DNA of 42,463 nt from Nitrospinota bacterium. GTDB taxonomy: Bacteria > JADFOP01 > DATKYB01. The DNA lies in assembly GCA_035528715.1 (NCBI GenBank), contig DATKYB010000028.1:1-42463 (forward strand), written 5' to 3'. The translations under genes were made by a program, and so were the position numbers. Below the pieces are notes generated by a model. The model did not search any database and was not told the origin of the DNA. It saw only the letters and a program-made list of their open reading frames with translations. Below, piece after piece: positions 874 to 11,502 of the stretch (within the stretch, counting starts at the first letter, position 1; every line of letters begins with the position of its first letter).

Positions 874-3048
874 ATGGCAAAAAAGGGCAAATTTTTAAAG
901 AGATTAGAAACAAATTTTTTTAGACATGGAAAGAAAAAGGATATGCTATCTCTAAATAGAATACTGTTACTAGTTTTTGTTTTCGGATTTGTGATCTTGC
1001 TATCTGGTTGCAAAGGAGACTTAAGTTTCATCCAAAAACCACAAGATACAAATCATGAGTTGATAAAGAGGGCTCAGGAATATGTTATCGAAGGATTAAA
1101 TTTCTATGAACAGGGAAATGATAAAGAAGCAAAGCAGAGATTTGATCTTGCCTTAAATCTTCTATCAAAAGCTGACCTCCCTCCCGGTCACAAAGATCTG
1201 GAGCTTCTCGAAATAGGTCTCCCTGAAAGATACAAAAGATATAAGTTGTCTCAGATTTATTCAAGACTACGAGGAGAAAAAGTAGATAAACCAAGGTTAG
1301 CAGAAAAAGAGATTGAAGAGTCAAGAGAAAAGATTCGACTAATGGACGAGACAATCGTTATTGAAGAATTAATGGAAGACATAGAAAAACAAAAGAAAGC
1401 AGAGGCTGCTCAAAAGGATGTTACGGATCTTTCTGATGACGAGTACATAAAAAATGAAATTGTTCGCCTCATGGCTGAATTCGGAGAGGATGAGTATGTC
1501 GTGCCTGATATATTTATTTCGAGTGTTAAACATTTTATAAACGCATATCAGACAGATGAGAGAGAATTTTTTGAAAAGGCTCTGAGAAGGTCTGTAAAAT
1601 ACCTCCCCTTGATCAAAACTATATTTGCTCAAAAGAGGGTGCCAGAGGATATGGCCTATATGGCACTTGTGGAAAGCGGATTCAACCCTCTGGCTGTAAG
1701 CCGGGCCAGGGCCAAAGGGCTCTGGCAGTTTATAAGATCTACGGGAAGGATTTACGGACTGAGAAGTAATCGATATATTGAAGAAAGATATGATCCAATA
1801 AAATCCACATTAGCAGCAAGAAAATATTTTTTAGACCTTGTTGCTATTTTTGGTTCGAGATCCTTTATGCTGGCCATGGCTTCTTATAATGCAGGAGAGA
1901 TGAGGATACAAGGATGTCTCAAGAGACTTGATGATCCCTTCGAACAAAGAAATTTCTGGAGTATCAGAAACTGTTTAAGAAAAGAGACCCAGGATTACGT
2001 TCCCCGAATCATTGCTTCTGCTATTATAGGGAAAAATCCCAAAAGGTTTGGTTTTTTTGATCCTAATGATGGTACTAAGTTTGAAACAGTTACTCTTAAC
2101 AGACAGATTACTTTAGAAAAAATAGCAAAAATCTCGAATGTTTCAATAGACACTATTAGAAAGTTAAATCCAGACATGGATGGAAACAGCAAATATACCC
2201 CTTCAAGGGTTCGAAATTTCCTTCTTGCTGTTCCTTATGGAACCAAACAGGCCGTAGAAAGAGAACTTACAAGAATTCATGGGAAAAGCTATGCCCTAAA
2301 GGATATCACAGATTCGTATCAGAACAGAGTAAAATATGATGAAGAGAAGATAAGATACAGAGTAAGGAGTGGAGATTCACTTTCAAAGATTGGGAAGAAA
2401 TTTGGCGTCAATTATAAATTGATTGCGAAGTGGAACAATCTGCCAAATTATAGAATAAGGACAGGGCAGGTTTTAACCATATATAAAGGGGGGGAAATAG
2501 CGTCTTATTATAAGAAGGAAAAGGAAGTCAATGGTAATGGAGAATTAAGATATACGGTAAGAAGAGGGGATTCTCTTTGGGAGATAGGGAAGAAGTTTAA
2601 TGTCAATTATAAATTGATTGCGGATTGGAACGACCTTTCAGGTCATCGAATAAAACCTGGACAGGTATTAACCATCTATAGGGGGAGTCCAGCCTCTACT
2701 ACAGAAATAGCCAAAAAAGTCAAAAAAGGGAAAAATCTCATTCGTTATGAGGTTGAAAAGGGAAATTCCCTTTATGATATAGGCCAAATGTTTATTGTTC
2801 ACTACCGTGATATTATGCGGTGGAATAATCTAAGCAACGCAAGGATATATCCAGGGACTCAATTAAAGATATATACAGATAAAAATGCAAAACTGATCTA
2901 TTACAAAGTAAAAGAAGGAGACACCCTATCAGATATCAGCAAAAAACATAATGTAAATTTGTCTCACCTATTAAGCTATAATGGATTAAGCCCTAAGGAA
3001 AAAATCATACCTAAAGATAAGTTGAAGATTTATATTATAGAAGATTAG
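874..3048 (+). CDS. mltD: MltD-type lytic transglycosylase lipoprotein with LysM repeats
   Basis: It cleaves peptidoglycan glycan strands, leaving 1,6-anhydro-muropeptides, and is probably anchored in the outer membrane. A hydrophobic segment ends in lipobox LLSGC, with Cys46 as the lipidation site. Residues about 57-100 look TPR-like. The SLT catalytic domain spans about 240-390, with catalytic Glu267 in ALVESGFNP, followed by AKGLWQF and the ASYNAGE motif. A weak LysM-like module (about 410-470) is followed by four clear LysM repeats to the C-terminus, each with a YxVxxGDSL-type start and a WN centre. The first two clear repeats are close to identical at DNA level (2401-2436 and 2596-2631), so they duplicated recently. 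ATG 943 (residue 24), behind GGAAAGAAAAAGG, is an alternative start giving a more typical lipoprotein signal. It sits between the LolA-like gene and an AlbA_2 regulator 8 bases downstream. Confidence 0.9.
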   Translation: MAKKGKFLKRLETNFFRHGKKKDMLSLNRILLLVFVFGFVILLSGCKGDLSFIQKPQDTNHELIKRAQEYVIEGLNFYEQGNDKEAKQRFDLALNLLSKADLPPGHKDLELLEIGLPERYKRYKLSQIYSRLRGEKVDKPRLAEKEIEESREKIRLMDETIVIEELMEDIEKQKKAEAAQKDVTDLSDDEYIKNEIVRLMAEFGEDEYVVPDIFISSVKHFINAYQTDEREFFEKALRRSVKYLPLIKTIFAQKRVPEDMAYMALVESGFNPLAVSRARAKGLWQFIRSTGRIYGLRSNRYIEERYDPIKSTLAARKYFLDLVAIFGSRSFMLAMASYNAGEMRIQGCLKRLDDPFEQRNFWSIRNCLRKETQDYVPRIIASAIIGKNPKRFGFFDPNDGTKFETVTLNRQITLEKIAKISNVSIDTIRKLNPDMDGNSKYTPSRVRNFLLAVPYGTKQAVERELTRIHGKSYALKDITDSYQNRVKYDEEKIRYRVRSGDSLSKIGKKFGVNYKLIAKWNNLPNYRIRTGQVLTIYKGGEIASYYKKEKEVNGNGELRYTVRRGDSLWEIGKKFNVNYKLIADWNDLSGHRIKPGQVLTIYRGSPASTTEIAKKVKKGKNLIRYEVEKGNSLYDIGQMFIVHYRDIMRWNNLSNARIYPGTQLKIYTDKNAKLIYYKVKEGDTLSDISKKHNVNLSHLLSYNGLSPKEKIIPKDKLKIYIIED

Positions 3049-5177: not shown

Positions 5178-6182
5178 TTATGGAGCCGTTTCTCCTTTTT
5201 TTATGCTGGAGAGATGTTTCATTTTTTTGAATTCATAGAGGGTGCCCATTGCGAGGTTTTGAGTCTTGATACCCTTTTCTTCCACTGCTGCAAGAGGATT
5301 TAAGCCACCAAAAACAACCATTCCAGCCCTTCCTTCGTGGACAGAGATATCAAGGAGATTCTGGCCCGGTTTTCCTATGATTAAAATACCGCCAAGACCA
5401 ATTTGATCGAGTTTTTTTCTTATCTTGTTTACTTCTGCGATACTTACAGCAGGAATTTCTCGAAAACTTGCGCCGATGAGTCCGTTACCTGTCAAAACAA
5501 CATTATTAACGGTTGTCATATTTCCTTTAATAAAAATCTCAAGAGGATCAAGTGAAGAACCATCATAGCTGATTATCTCTGTAAATCTAAGAGGCTCTCC
5601 ATCCCTCATTTCAAGGAGTCCTCCAAATCTTGATCTTACAGGTATTCCGTAATTGAGCAGTATTCCATTTATAGTTACACTGCAGATTGTTCCTATAGCC
5701 ATCTTCAAAGGAGGAACATAGTATTCTCCTAATTGATTTTCTGGTTCTTGGAAGACAATAAATTCTCCCATTCCAAGCCTTTTTTCAAGGACAGGGAGGA
5801 TATATTTTAAAGATCTTTTAAAATCCTCTTTATCAATCAGGGAGATGTTAAGGATGATGTCACCTCTCAGGGTCTTTGGTGAGAATGACAATTTATAGGA
5901 TATCGTATCTATCTTTGAAGCAATCAATCCAACCTTATCTATGACCAAGGCACTCTTTAGCTCTTCTTCTCCAGCAGGAGTTATCTCTCGTCCCCTCCTT
6001 CCAAGATTTCTTGTAAGCCCAAGTCTATCTGTTATAGCGAGATAGTATCTCACGGTTCTTTGGCTAAGATTGATTCCATAATTCTCTATCTTTTCAGCTA
6101 TTTTGGTGCTTCCAAGGGGTCTTCTGGCATCCTTTAAGACTCTTAGCATAGCAATAATTTTTCTCTCAATCCTAATATCCAT
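5178..6182 (-). CDS. nrpR: NrpR-type nitrogen regulator (winged helix + one DUF128 domain)
   Basis: A 334-residue protein. Residues 1-75 form a winged helix-turn-helix (IAMLRVLKD, STKIAEKIENYG, SQRTVRYYLAITDRLGL). Residues about 80-320 form one NrpR regulatory (DUF128) domain, with landmarks such as GTICSVTINGILLNYGIPV, GGLLEMRDG, GLIGASFREIPA and HEGRAGMVVFGGLNP. NrpR is best known from methanogens, where it represses nitrogen fixation and ammonium assimilation genes and is released by 2-oxoglutarate; Methanococcus NrpR has two DUF128 domains, this one has one. It is transcribed away from glutamate dehydrogenase, and the shared region holds three inverted repeats with GGYAA/TTRCC arms. I infer control of the dehydrogenase gene and autoregulation. 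Confidence 0.85.
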   Translation of the reverse strand: MDIRIERKIIAMLRVLKDARRPLGSTKIAEKIENYGINLSQRTVRYYLAITDRLGLTRNLGRRGREITPAGEEELKSALVIDKVGLIASKIDTISYKLSFSPKTLRGDIILNISLIDKEDFKRSLKYILPVLEKRLGMGEFIVFQEPENQLGEYYVPPLKMAIGTICSVTINGILLNYGIPVRSRFGGLLEMRDGEPLRFTEIISYDGSSLDPLEIFIKGNMTTVNNVVLTGNGLIGASFREIPAVSIAEVNKIRKKLDQIGLGGILIIGKPGQNLLDISVHEGRAGMVVFGGLNPLAAVEEKGIKTQNLAMGTLYEFKKMKHLSSIKKGETAP

Positions 6183-6400: not shown

Positions 6401-6441
6401 GTTTTTTTAAAAATAAATTCTTAAAATAGAGGAGATTGATA

Positions 6442-7689
6442 ATGTCGGAAGTTAATCTCTTTAAAATTAGCCAGAGACAATTGGATGAAGCTGCAAAGAT
6501 TCTTAATCTCGATCCCGGCATGCATGCCTTTCTTCGGGAACCGATGAGAGAACTTCATGTTACCATACCTGTTCGCATGGATGATGGAACTATAAAGGTG
6601 TTTAGAGGATTTAGGGTACAGTATAATGATGCAAGAGGACCCACAAAAGGTGGCTTAAGATTCCATCCTGATGAAACCATTGATACAATCAGGGCCTTGG
6701 CTGCTTGGATGACATGGAAATGTGCCTTGGTAAATATACCCCTTGGAGGAGCAAAGGGGGGGATTATCTGTGACCCAAAGAAGATGTCGGAAGGGGAATT
6801 GGAGCGTTTAAGCCGGGGATTTATAGACCAGATAGCAAGAATTATAGGACCTGACAAAGATATTCCTGCCCCTGATGTCTATACCACTCCACAGATCATG
6901 GCATGGATGATGGATGAATACTCTAAGCTTTCTGAAAAGAATCAATTTGGTGTAATAACTGGTAAGCCTTTAGAATTAAGGGGGTCTGCTGGGCGTGATG
7001 ATGCTACTGCAAGAGGAGGGTGGTATACTGTTCGAGAAGCAGCCAAAGAACTGGGTCTAAATTTGAAAGGAGCAACAGTAGCAATACAGGGCTATGGAAA
7101 TGCCGGGTATTTTGCTGCAAGCTTGGGTGAATCTCTCTTTGGATGTAAGATTGTTGCTGTAAGCGACTCAAAGGGTGGAATTTATAATGAAGACGGCTTG
7201 GATTCTGAAGAGGTCAAAGAACACAAAAATAAAACGGGCTCTGTTGTTGGTTATCGAAATACAAAAGCTATATCAAACGAAGAAATCCTTGAGTTGAATG
7301 TGGACGTTTTATGGCCAGCAGGATTGGAAAATGTTATTACAGAAAAGAATGCTGGAAATATTAAAGCCAAAATTGTTGCCGAGGCTGCAAACGGGCCTAC
7401 TACTCCTGAGGCCGATGATATTCTTTATAAAAATAATGTTCATCTTATACCAGATTTCTTGTGCAATGCCGGTGGTGTAACTGTATCCTACTTTGAGATG
7501 GTCCAGAATTTTTATATGTATTACTGGGAATTAGAGGATGTTCATAAGCGTCTGAACAATAAGATGACAGCTGCATACCGAACCGTCTTAGAGACATCAG
7601 AACAATACAAAATTAATATGAGACAGGCAGCATATATTGTTGCTGTTAAGCGCGTAGCTGAAGCAGTGAGACTACGGGGATGGGCATAG
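6442..7689 (+). CDS. gdhA: Glutamate dehydrogenase (Glu/Leu/Phe/Val dehydrogenase family)
   Basis: It catalyses reversible oxidative deamination of glutamate to 2-oxoglutarate and ammonium. The 415-residue length matches hexameric family members. Visible motifs: KGGLRFHP (substrate-binding Lys), PLGGAKGGI (active-site Lys region), PAPDVYT (catalytic Asp), and the nucleotide-binding GYGNAG of the second Rossmann domain, followed by NAGGVTVSYFEMVQN. Cofactor choice was not determined. The frame opens at TTG 6436, but AGAGGAG at 6428-6434 is spaced 7 bases from ATG 6442, so that is the start. Divergent from nrpR with operator-like repeats in the promoter region, so it is probably repressed or induced according to nitrogen status. 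No clear terminator follows; the 160 bases to the next, oppositely oriented gene hold nothing recognisable. Confidence 0.93.
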   Translation: MSEVNLFKISQRQLDEAAKILNLDPGMHAFLREPMRELHVTIPVRMDDGTIKVFRGFRVQYNDARGPTKGGLRFHPDETIDTIRALAAWMTWKCALVNIPLGGAKGGIICDPKKMSEGELERLSRGFIDQIARIIGPDKDIPAPDVYTTPQIMAWMMDEYSKLSEKNQFGVITGKPLELRGSAGRDDATARGGWYTVREAAKELGLNLKGATVAIQGYGNAGYFAASLGESLFGCKIVAVSDSKGGIYNEDGLDSEEVKEHKNKTGSVVGYRNTKAISNEEILELNVDVLWPAGLENVITEKNAGNIKAKIVAEAANGPTTPEADDILYKNNVHLIPDFLCNAGGVTVSYFEMVQNFYMYYWELEDVHKRLNNKMTAAYRTVLETSEQYKINMRQAAYIVAVKRVAEAVRLRGWA

Positions 7690-7850: not shown

Positions 7851-10475
7851 CTATTCTAAGAAACAAAGAGCTCGCTGAGTATTTGGTTCGGCAACAACTT
7901 TTGCATAACTACCATTGGCTGCAGAGCAAACATCGATCACATGTATCACATTTTCAAATTTGTAAGCATCGGTTGACATTTCTTTGAGTATATTCGGAGA
8001 GCGTTCAAAAAAACTCTTATTAAACTCGGTTTTCTCGTCATCAGGATAAATAGGGAGGTAGATGATATGAGCTTCTACCAGATCCTGAAAGAAATGAGTT
8101 CCATAGGAGACTTCTGGTACATGTCCCGCTTCTTCGCGAGCTACTTCTACGAGAACCGCAGCATTGTCAATATCTGCATAGCTTACATTGACCCCCAGAT
8201 CTATATTACTGCTACCCCACCTCCCCGGTCCCATCATCATTACTTTACCTTCTGCAGTACGCAGATGCGCGTTGATATTTCCTACGATACGTCCCAAAGA
8301 TTTCTTCCTATCAACCGTTTCAATTGCAGCATAGCTTTTTGGATCGATATATATGATATAACGTATATGACTAATCACCCCACTGCTGATAAATCTATTT
8401 GATTTGAACAGGATATTTTCTTGGGGTATGTTATCTGGAAATATCACTGGACTTGATATTCCTGGTATAGACATAGGCCGGCACTGAAGCAGATTAACTT
8501 TCAAACGTCCGTCTTTCCCCAGCGATGCAGTAAATTCAGTTTCTATAGGGTGACCATATACCCTTTCTAATTCAGTTACCATTTCTCCAGTAATACTTAC
8601 AAATTCTGTTTTGTTGATAAGGTTGTTGAAAGTGAAAACAAGATTCTGCGCTGAACCGTCTACGTGGCTTGTAATAGGATCATATGGGTGACCTTCTTTG
8701 GTTACAGAAACAAGCAGGTAAAGATTGGGATAGTCCAAATCGGCAAGTGTGTCAGTAACAGATCGAGTCATAAATTTATTTGACTTCAAGTCGATAAGGT
8801 CTATCTCGTGCTGTGAATACTTCACGATTTTCATACCAGACTCAGGTCTCAATTTTGGATTGCTAACGGGAATCATCCTTGGATAATCGCCTCCCACTCG
8901 ATCCACTGCTCGTGTACCCAAGCCAAAGACTAAACGAATAAGTCCCTTTTTAGAATCAATACGGTCTGTCCAGACGTATAAGTTTCGAGATAGTGCTACA
9001 CCTGCAAGAGTCGGAAAGAAAAAGTTTTTGTAAGGCACACCTGAAACGCGTTGGACCAGAATTGCCATCTGTTCATCACTTTCTCCCAGGCCTCGTTTGC
9101 GTCTATATGAGAGAGCATCCGGGTTCAATGCACTTGCAAAGACAAGTTTTACTGCACGTAAAAAAACCTCTAATCTATCGTGTGGATTACCTTGGTTGGC
9201 ACAAAATTCACTTCGATACTTACCGGCAAATGCGTTTCCAAAACTATCTTCCAGCAAACTACTGGACCTTACGATAATCGGTGCCTGTCCAAAATAATCG
9301 AGCATGTTGCGAAACTGCTCGACTATTTCTGATGGAAATTTTCCTGCAAGGAAACGCTGTTCAACCTCCTTAAATTCTTCATGTGAAAACCGGGGCTTAC
9401 TCGACAACTGTAATCGCAGTCGGAACAGGTCGTTATTTACTAGGAAAGTGAAAAAAACGTCAGATCCAATATAGAAAGAGTCATGATCTTCCATTACCTC
9501 GGCAAGACCTCTTTTGCGTTTATCATCTGAAAGGATGCGCCTTGCTAGCAACATCCCGGCAGCCTTGCCTCCGATACGCCCAGAACCAATAAGTCGATCA
9601 CGAATATTAAAGAGGTCATCTAATGTAAAATATTGATCAACAAGTCGGTTGAATTCCGGATGGTTTCCTACCATCATCCTCGAAAATTCTTTCTTTAAAG
9701 TGGCAATTTCTGGTGATTCTTCAGGTAATTGCTTACCAGTTTCACAATATTGAATCAATTTTCTATATACGCTTTGCCATGGAGCAATAGAATGAATATC
9801 AGGATCAAGTGGTTTTTTATGAGCAATTGTAGTCACCTCAGCTGCATCACCGCTGCTAAATATGGGGGACCAAACTTTTTCTGAAATAACATGAGGTAAA
9901 AACATTTGCGAGGAATACCGATCCCAAACCTTCAACGGATGGAGATATCTTTTGTCCTTTACTTTGCAAATATCTATTAATACCTGCGTTGTATCTCTTA
10001 TCCTTGCAACTGCACTATGAGAGTGCTGACCTCGCGTAAGTGCAAAATATGTTACTGTATCAAGCTCAAAAAGATAAGGACAGGTTACCTGGAAAAAGTT
10101 TGCTAATAACTCGTCTGTAGCCCATTCAACCACAAGAGCAGATAAGTTATCAAATATATAAAATACTTCCCGACCTCGTTCTTTGATTATTTTATGCACT
10201 TCACCGCTAAAAAAATCAAACCCAGGTTTTGGATCAACATTGATTATCTCAAGACCACTTCGAGGCTTAAGAATTGGCTCGTGAGGGGCAAATCTCATAT
10301 AGACACATTTATAACCATTGAGTATTGCTTGGTTCAAGAATGGCTCTGTAAAATACAGATAGTCTTCTAAATTATCAACCTGCCAGACTACATTATCACC
10401 CAGACGCAATCCTTGTATGACTTCATCCAGAGGCTTTAAACCACTAGGTATTGTTTTTGATTCCCTCTCATCCAT
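7851..10475 (-). CDS. KaiC-like / PPDK ATP-grasp fusion protein (PEP/pyruvate-binding domain protein)
   Basis: An 874-residue two-part protein. Residues about 1-215 look like a KaiC/RecA-type ATPase (IPSGLKPLDEVIQGLRLGD, and a Walker-B-like FYIFDNLS), but where a Walker A loop is expected it reads VDNLEDYLYF, so no GK[ST] is present. Residues about 290-670 match the N-terminal nucleotide-binding domain of PEP synthase/pyruvate phosphate dikinase: GRIGGKAAGMLLARR, PIIVRSSSLLEDSFG, FAGKYRSEF and a closing LLQCRPMS. The phosphohistidine swivel (TxGGxxSHAA) and the PEP/pyruvate barrel of true dikinases are missing; residues 680-874 are instead an unrecognised domain with a GPGRWGSSNIDLGV motif. 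It therefore should not make PEP. A nucleotide- or phosphate-sensing or phosphotransfer role is possible but unproven. The DNA looks less A-rich than its neighbours. It stands alone, 240 bases from the ferredoxin gene's stop. Confidence 0.82.
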   Translation of the reverse strand: MDERESKTIPSGLKPLDEVIQGLRLGDNVVWQVDNLEDYLYFTEPFLNQAILNGYKCVYMRFAPHEPILKPRSGLEIINVDPKPGFDFFSGEVHKIIKERGREVFYIFDNLSALVVEWATDELLANFFQVTCPYLFELDTVTYFALTRGQHSHSAVARIRDTTQVLIDICKVKDKRYLHPLKVWDRYSSQMFLPHVISEKVWSPIFSSGDAAEVTTIAHKKPLDPDIHSIAPWQSVYRKLIQYCETGKQLPEESPEIATLKKEFSRMMVGNHPEFNRLVDQYFTLDDLFNIRDRLIGSGRIGGKAAGMLLARRILSDDKRKRGLAEVMEDHDSFYIGSDVFFTFLVNNDLFRLRLQLSSKPRFSHEEFKEVEQRFLAGKFPSEIVEQFRNMLDYFGQAPIIVRSSSLLEDSFGNAFAGKYRSEFCANQGNPHDRLEVFLRAVKLVFASALNPDALSYRRKRGLGESDEQMAILVQRVSGVPYKNFFFPTLAGVALSRNLYVWTDRIDSKKGLIRLVFGLGTRAVDRVGGDYPRMIPVSNPKLRPESGMKIVKYSQHEIDLIDLKSNKFMTRSVTDTLADLDYPNLYLLVSVTKEGHPYDPITSHVDGSAQNLVFTFNNLINKTEFVSITGEMVTELERVYGHPIETEFTASLGKDGRLKVNLLQCRPMSIPGISSPVIFPDNIPQENILFKSNRFISSGVISHIRYIIYIDPKSYAAIETVDRKKSLGRIVGNINAHLRTAEGKVMMMGPGRWGSSNIDLGVNVSYADIDNAAVLVEVAREEAGHVPEVSYGTHFFQDLVEAHIIYLPIYPDDEKTEFNKSFFERSPNILKEMSTDAYKFENVIHVIDVCSAANGSYAKVVAEPNTQRALCFLE

Positions 10476-10716: not shown

Positions 10717-11502
10717 TCAATGATCATGGTTGCAGGCTCCTCTTTTTATCGGGTTACTTTCCTCTTCTCTTTTATCTCCCCTAATCCCTATGACCCATTT
10801 CTTAAGAGGAATATCTTTGCCAGAGTCTTCAATTGCCTGTTTGGCAATATAGTATAGAGCATGACAACAAGGAACTTCCATGTGGACTACTGTCAAGCTC
10901 TTTATATTAGAAGACTTAAGAAGCATAGTGATTTTTTCCTTGTAAAACTCAGGATCATCCAGCTTGGGACACCCAATAATGACTGCTTTATCCTTTATAA
11001 AATCCCTGTGAAAGCCGGCAAATGCAAAAGGGGCACAATCTGCTGCAAGGAGCAGATCTGCATTTTCAAGAAAAGGGGCACCAGGAGGGACCAAAGCAAT
11101 CTTTATGGGCCATTGGGTTAACATTGATGGTGTTGTCTCTCTATCCTTTTTTCCATTATCCTCAATCTTTGGTCTTGCAAACTCCATAATCCTGCTGGAA
11201 GGACAGCCAGAAAATTGTGGATGAGAGGGCTTTTTCGTTTTTCCTCTCTTCTTTTTTTCTAGGTGTATCTTCACTGCCTTTTCATCAAACTCCTCTGCTT
11301 GTTTCTCTTCTAAGGTAATAGCACCTCTGGGGCATTCTCCAAGACATGCGCCCAATCCATCACAATACTTCTCGCTTATAAGCCTTGCCTTGCCATCGAT
11401 AATCTTAATAGCACCCTCGGCACAAGAGACCACACAATTGCCACATCCATCGCACTTTTCTTCATCTATCTTTATAATCTTTCTCTTCTGCTTTGTTATC
11501 AT
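10717..11502 (-). CDS. Ferredoxin-like iron-sulfur protein (two N-terminal cluster motifs)
   Basis: A 261-residue cytoplasmic protein. The first motif is CDGCGNCVVSC (4 Cys, 4Fe-4S type). The second is CDGLGACLGECP, where Leu replaces the second Cys, leaving three ligands in the motif; a 3Fe-4S cluster or an outside ligand is possible. After a Lys-rich linker, residues about 95-240 carry further Cys (SGCPSS, AADCAP, IIGCPKLDD, EVPCCHALYY) in a conserved pattern. I know this layout from anaerobe proteins annotated only as 4Fe-4S ferredoxin family; a role in electron transfer or redox sensing is likely, with the partner unknown. The tail ends CNHDH, a possible metal site. A Crp/Fnr-like palindrome lies about 90 bases upstream. 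Confidence 0.8.
   Translation of the reverse strand: MITKQKRKIIKIDEEKCDGCGNCVVSCAEGAIKIIDGKARLISEKYCDGLGACLGECPRGAITLEEKQAEEFDEKAVKIHLEKKKRGKTKKPSHPQFSGCPSSRIMEFARPKIEDNGKKDRETTPSMLTQWPIKIALVPPGAPFLENADLLLAADCAPFAFAGFHRDFIKDKAVIIGCPKLDDPEFYKEKITMLLKSSNIKSLTVVHMEVPCCHALYYIAKQAIEDSGKDIPLKKWVIGIRGDKREEESNPIKRGACNHDH

Follow-up and report, generated by a model that had tools for sequence, protein, structure and literature searches.

A conserved ATP-grasp module with exchangeable N-terminal domains is genomically linked to glutamate dehydrogenase in bacteria

The window, that is, the whole stretch of 42,463 nucleotides analyzed here, encodes a protein in which a KaiC-like N-terminal domain is joined to an ATP-grasp domain of the PPDK type and a C-terminal tail. 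This locus raised the question of what such a protein may do, for which an initial annotation made from the sequence alone had suggested an undescribed phosphotransfer or nucleotide-sensing protein. The features considered are listed in Table 1. The gene was present as a single copy in the genome and was absent from the other two genomes of the phylum examined. Full-length relatives with 58% identity were found in two genomes of a Chloroflexota sample (G060, a Dehalococcoidia MAG, and G404), and no relative was found in a search of viral contigs. The base composition of the gene, which had been thought to differ from that of its neighbors, proved unexceptional, since both its GC content (0.404 vs. 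a mean of 0.370 for window genes, SD 0.031; z = 1.1) and its GC3 (0.329 vs. 0.339 for window genes; z = -0.3) were within the range of the neighbors. A foreign origin as judged by composition was ruled out by the same values.

Table 1. Positions in the window of the gene, its domains and motifs, and two neighboring genes.
Feature	Residues	Positions	Strand	Basis or remark
Whole gene, KaiC-like/PPDK_N/tail protein	874 aa	7851..10475	-	One intact ORF
Degenerate KaiC/RecA-like N-terminal domain	about 1-205	9861..10475	-	hhalign to KaiC profile; 18-member alignment
Former Walker A position (GDNVVWQVDNLEDYL)	26-40	10356..10400	-	No GK[ST]; 18-member alignment
Walker-B-like strand (FYIFDNLSAL)	105-114	10134..10163	-	D109 invariant; alignment and profile comparison
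PPDK_N ATP-grasp domain	300-669	8469..9578	-	Pfam PF01326, E=3.5e-44; same span in genome search
C-terminal domain (tail)	670-874	7854..8468	-	No Pfam or NCBIfam match
GPGRWGSS motif	749-756	8208..8231	-	Sequence and 131-sequence conservation
H794 of SxG[TS]HFF	794	8094..8096	-	Conserved at 98%; candidate for a catalytic role in the tail
Glutamate dehydrogenase (GDH)		6436..7689	+	Pfam ELFV_dehydrog, 1e-80; single PF00208 match in the genome, hence its only GDH
NrpR-type nitrogen regulator, next gene after GDH		5178..6182	-	Pfam NRD1_2, 4e-80

The nucleotide-binding domain of PPDK and PEP synthase was confirmed in the second half of the protein, where PPDK_N was the only domain detected by Pfam; in a profile comparison, it aligned with the ATP-grasp domains of PEP synthases with 99% probability. 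K304 (GGK), R403 (VRSS), E409/D410, E647, Q664, and R666 (QxR), which we take to be the residues of the PPDK ATP site, were 96-100% conserved among 131 sequences of the family described below, with K304, R403, E647, and Q664 at 98-100%. Because these residues are nearly invariant, the predicted ATP site should be functional. The window protein thus has the K, R, ED, E, and Q-x-R nucleotide-site set in common with PEP synthase and PPDK (COG0574), but it lacks their swivelling phosphohistidine domain and PEP/pyruvate TIM barrel and carries another C-terminal domain in their place. Neither of the two missing domains was matched by Pfam, the sequence beyond the ATP-grasp domain is only about 205 residues long, and when the tail was compared with 27 swivel domains (hhalign), the probability was 0.2%. 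By eye, the TH of GTHFF and the LGxxV of the tail resemble pieces of the swivel motif; this candidate for a hidden swivel histidine was rejected on profile comparison (0.1-0.2%), and neither Pfam nor the profiles point to a swivel domain in the tail sequence. Matches to the NCBIfam PEP-synthase models were far under the cut-offs. Members of the family are labeled in databases as "PEP/pyruvate-binding domain-containing protein," and a PPDK_N match alone does not equal PEP synthesis.

The C-terminal domain was, as initially annotated, an unrecognised one containing GPGRWGSS. The core of this motif (G751-R752-W753-G754) was 94-100% conserved in the 131 sequences. R752, G754, G761, E777, S790, G792, H794, and F795 were invariants of the tail in this set, and its most conserved motifs were GxGRWG (R752), LGxxV (G761), E777, and SxG[TS]HFF (S790, G792, H794, F795). 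A tail model computed with AlphaFold from two sequences reached a pLDDT of 64.7 and a pTM of 0.73, the motif region being its weak part, and Foldseek found no match to this two-sequence model at E<=0.001 in PDB and BFVD. The model of the whole protein, likewise with two input sequences, had a pLDDT of 35, too low for use, and a sequence search of PDB with the window protein returned chance matches only, none of them convincing.

At the N-terminus, the RecA/KaiC outline without a GK[ST] loop was corroborated. A profile of genuine KaiC ATPases from other genomes matched an alignment of 18 members carrying this domain (hereafter KaiC type) over 159 columns with a probability of 96% (hhalign, E=3.7e-9), while unrelated profiles gave about 1% or less, and a RecA/KaiC fold is predicted on this profile match. 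Single-sequence Pfam searches of the 18 aligned members gave weak matches, at best 2e-5 for PAXNEB/Elp4, 1e-3 for DUF7090, and 5e-3 for KaiC, and none for the N-terminal domain of the window protein itself. The alignment with KaiC spans STGxxxLDxxxxGL, after which KaiC enters its P-loop, and the Walker-B-like FDxLSxL. At the place of GxxGxGKT in KaiC, the KaiC-type members have GDNxVWQ followed by an acidic stretch, in which G26 and D27 were invariant and N28 nearly invariant across the 18 aligned sequences. No P-loop motif ([AG]x4GK[ST]), and hence no intact Walker A, was found in the sequences of the 19 KaiC-type members, i.e., the window protein and its 18 relatives, so that its loss is old and common to the type and is not a defect of the window copy; for the same reason, the KaiC half is best read as a scaffold or sensor. 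The KaiC/RecA-like ATPases (PF06745) and the P-loop-less Elp4 (PAXNEB) thus resemble the window protein in the 159-column profile match and the Walker-B-like strand, whereas KaiC-type members differ from the former in having a GDNxVWQ-type sequence for Walker A and a fused ATP-grasp module.

Following the distribution and conserved neighbors of homologues, as the initial annotation had proposed, revealed that the ATP-grasp domain and the tail form a conserved module of about 580 aa with GDH as a recurrent neighbor. We collected 133 module proteins in 110 loci; of 386 genomes in a sample spanning the bacteria, 74 carried the module, as did 26 of the 350 in the Chloroflexota sample. The window protein matched the module profile over its full length (E=6e-217), being itself one of the ten rows of that profile. 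The N-termini were of several kinds: pseudo-receiver plus receiver (REC type, 46), a helical region of about 190 residues (33), the KaiC-like domain (19), or none (minimal type, 16), and a further 16 proteins were of a longer type, in most tested members of which the C-terminal extension was a nucleotidyltransferase. In the receiver type (n=46), the second receiver keeps the acidic pair, the phospho-Asp, Ser, and Lys; the window protein, unlike these relatives, has no receiver domain with phospho-Asp. Genes of the minimal and the long type were often paired in tandem. In a tree, the window protein and three further KaiC-type proteins formed a cluster with a support of 0.99. It is therefore a member of a conserved ATP-grasp-plus-tail family with an exchangeable N-terminal domain, not a two-domain oddity, and we found no paper on this family. 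The reading as an undescribed protein stood in so far as the ATP-grasp residues are kept and the rest of the protein belongs to no Pfam, NCBIfam, or PDB family; it had missed the size of the family, the changeable N-termini, and the general linkage to GDH. Helical-type modules of the Chloroflexota sample often adjoined a dnaN-like gene identified by eye (DNA polymerase III beta subunit; L057, L061-L066, L074, L076), perhaps through shared ancestry only.

The genomic link between the module and GDH was strong. In the window, the two genes are convergent and 162 bp apart. When neighboring genes were clustered, GDH was the commonest family, found within 6 kb at 45 loci, and the next families reached 9. 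GDH was located within 5 kb in 43 of 73 sampled carrier genomes, and within 500 bp in 38 of the 73; by our estimate, chance adjacency at about two GDH genes per 3.5 Mb genome would be expected in well under one carrier. In the remaining 30 carriers, GDH was not seen in the stretch examined, some of these contigs being short. The link extended to every main architecture, with GDH within 5 kb for 30 of 46 receiver-type, 8 of 19 KaiC-type, 14 of 33 helical, 13 of 16 long, and 7 of 16 minimal members. The relative orientation varied (both genes on one strand in either order, convergent, or divergent), and both GDH clades were represented among the module-linked enzymes. GDH was encoded by 72 of 74 module carriers and by 203 of 312 non-carriers (Fisher p=4.8e-10, a value that is too small owing to shared ancestry). 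No site separating module-linked from unlinked GDHs was found in a comparison whose unlinked examples came from one GDH clade only. Several genomes contained two or more module genes for one or two GDHs. Given these genomes and the 30 carriers in which GDH was not seen near the module, some members may have other targets.

Other nitrogen-related genes were found in the same neighborhoods. NrpR, next to GDH in the window, was a recurrent neighbor of KaiC-type members and was also found at L050, L051, and L165; the KaiC-type gene occurred with GDH, NrpR, and glutamate synthase at L050 and L165, and with NrpR and glutamate synthase at L051. NuoF- and NuoE-like NADH-binding iron-sulphur subunits recurred in the neighborhood of the module, at 8 and 6 loci, respectively (L050, L071, L130, L133), hinting at an NADH-linked glutamate system. 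At L133 and L140 (G432, G702), four module genes were arranged in a row round one GDH in the order minimal, long, receiver, GDH, receiver. At L150, L153, L154, L155, L159, and L161, GDH formed a tight trio with a minimal and a long module gene, the latter with a nucleotidyltransferase tail where tested. This trio suggests that the controller may consist of two subunits and include a nucleotidylating arm.

A constant ATP-using module, exchangeable inputs, and a constant genomic partner fit the pattern of a control protein, and the module protein is probably a dedicated controller of ammonia uptake or release by the cell. For the window protein, we somewhat favor, at a little better than an even chance, an ATP-dependent controller of the activity of the adjacent GDH, into which the different N-termini feed different signals. 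Computation supports the architecture, the kept ATP site, the lost P-loop, and the GDH linkage; we infer GDH as the physical target, a covalent effect, the participating residue, and what the KaiC-like domain senses. The module would bind ATP and spend it on adjusting the activity of the neighboring GDH. Since catalytic-looking residues are kept in both of its domains, covalent modification through the tail would be the most likely form, in which the tail might phosphorylate, or otherwise activate or inactivate, GDH or a small partner, with R752, E777, S790, and H794 holding or receiving the transferred group. The N-terminal domain would provide a lineage-dependent signal input: in receiver-type members, the receiver may be switched by a histidine kinase, and the KaiC-like domain, lacking a P-loop, would not hydrolyze ATP in the usual way and could act as a sensor or as a platform for assembly. 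Control of ammonia assimilation at the protein level, the role proposed here, is exerted by GarA/OdhI and GlnD/GlnE on GDH or glutamine synthetase, and GlnD/GlnE use nucleotidyltransferase domains such as long-type members carry. To our knowledge, these systems are without a PPDK-type ATP-grasp domain.

The same GDH linkage would arise if the protein were a metabolic enzyme acting on glutamate or ammonia, for example an ATP-dependent ligase or kinase whose substrate is glutamate, 2-oxoglutarate, or some other metabolite linked to GDH and whose second active site is the tail. PPDK-type ATP-grasp domains also serve ligases, and the weak NCBIfam matches of the window protein include the prodigiosin ligase PigC and RedH. 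The glutamate synthase and NADH-binding subunits in the neighborhood and the conserved polar residues of the tail are likewise compatible with such an enzyme. However, interchangeable receiver, degenerate KaiC, and nucleotidyltransferase attachments are typical of control proteins and not of biosynthetic enzymes, and no wider pathway recurs near the module to a degree approaching GDH, so that we regard a metabolic role as unlikely, though deserving serious attention. Alternatively, the ATP-grasp domain might sense the ATP level, and the protein might bind, inhibit, or assemble GDH without modifying it. GDH is a hexamer and controllable by binding partners, and the absence of a P-loop from all KaiC-type members would suit a protein of this sort, but the 95-100% conservation of ATP-grasp and tail residues in the 131 sequences goes beyond the needs of binding, which makes purely non-catalytic regulation rather improbable. 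A PPDK_N domain that lacks swivel and PEP/pyruvate partners could be explained by a relic or broken PEP synthase or PPDK, or by half of a split PEP synthase, but this reading is very hard to reconcile with a module conserved in 133 proteins with a strongly conserved tail, and the split form was ruled out because the genome (about 97% complete) has no orphan swivel domain, its only two being located in ORFs of 869 and 922 aa that each contain their own PPDK_N.

An ATP-dependent controller of GDH may also bear on an older observation in Bacteroides thetaiotaomicron, in which one or more genes downstream of gdhA were described, as cited in PMC4539542, to affect GdhA activity in trans (Baggio and Morrison, 1996). 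In Bacteroidales, module genes also adjoin gdhA. One of them, the "PEP/pyruvate-binding domain-containing protein" of Parabacteroides distasonis (WP_041525632.1), contains the same module as the window protein, with a pseudo-receiver and a receiver at its N-terminus in place of the KaiC-like domain, and its record assigns it no function; gdhA, this gene, and a second GDH are located within about 9 kb, the second GDH being 3.5 kb away. More generally, the module genes of Phocaeicola and Parabacteroides are transcribed divergently from one GDH and are located 3.5-4.1 kb to the 3' side of the other, an order that alone does not settle which gene was the "downstream" one of 1996. The segment needed for the trans effect is said to be about 3 kb, which would fit a receiver-type member of 985 aa. 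The gene that acts on GdhA in trans may plausibly be a member of the module family, at least as far as the description cited in PMC4539542 goes.

Many anaerobes and gut bacteria tie carbon to nitrogen metabolism through GDH, and little is known about the setting of its activity in them; the module family offers a concrete candidate for its control that is present in workable Bacteroides and Parabacteroides. More tentatively, and with somewhat less than even confidence, the family could represent a new class of protein-level GDH control in many bacterial lineages, in which a PPDK-derived ATP-grasp enzyme makes no PEP and would modify GDH under plug-in inputs (receiver, P-loop-less KaiC, nucleotidyltransferase); such a class would explain the trans-acting gene of Bacteroides.

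Two further genes of the window were noted. Directly upstream of the module gene, on the same strand, is a gene for a ferredoxin-type protein that has two 4Fe-4S motifs (10717-11502, minus strand; gap 241 bp), and the two genes could be co-transcribed; a ferredoxin-type gene was not a recurrent neighbor at other module loci. On the plus strand, positions 874-3048 encode a lytic transglycosylase that contains an SLT domain and four LysM repeats.
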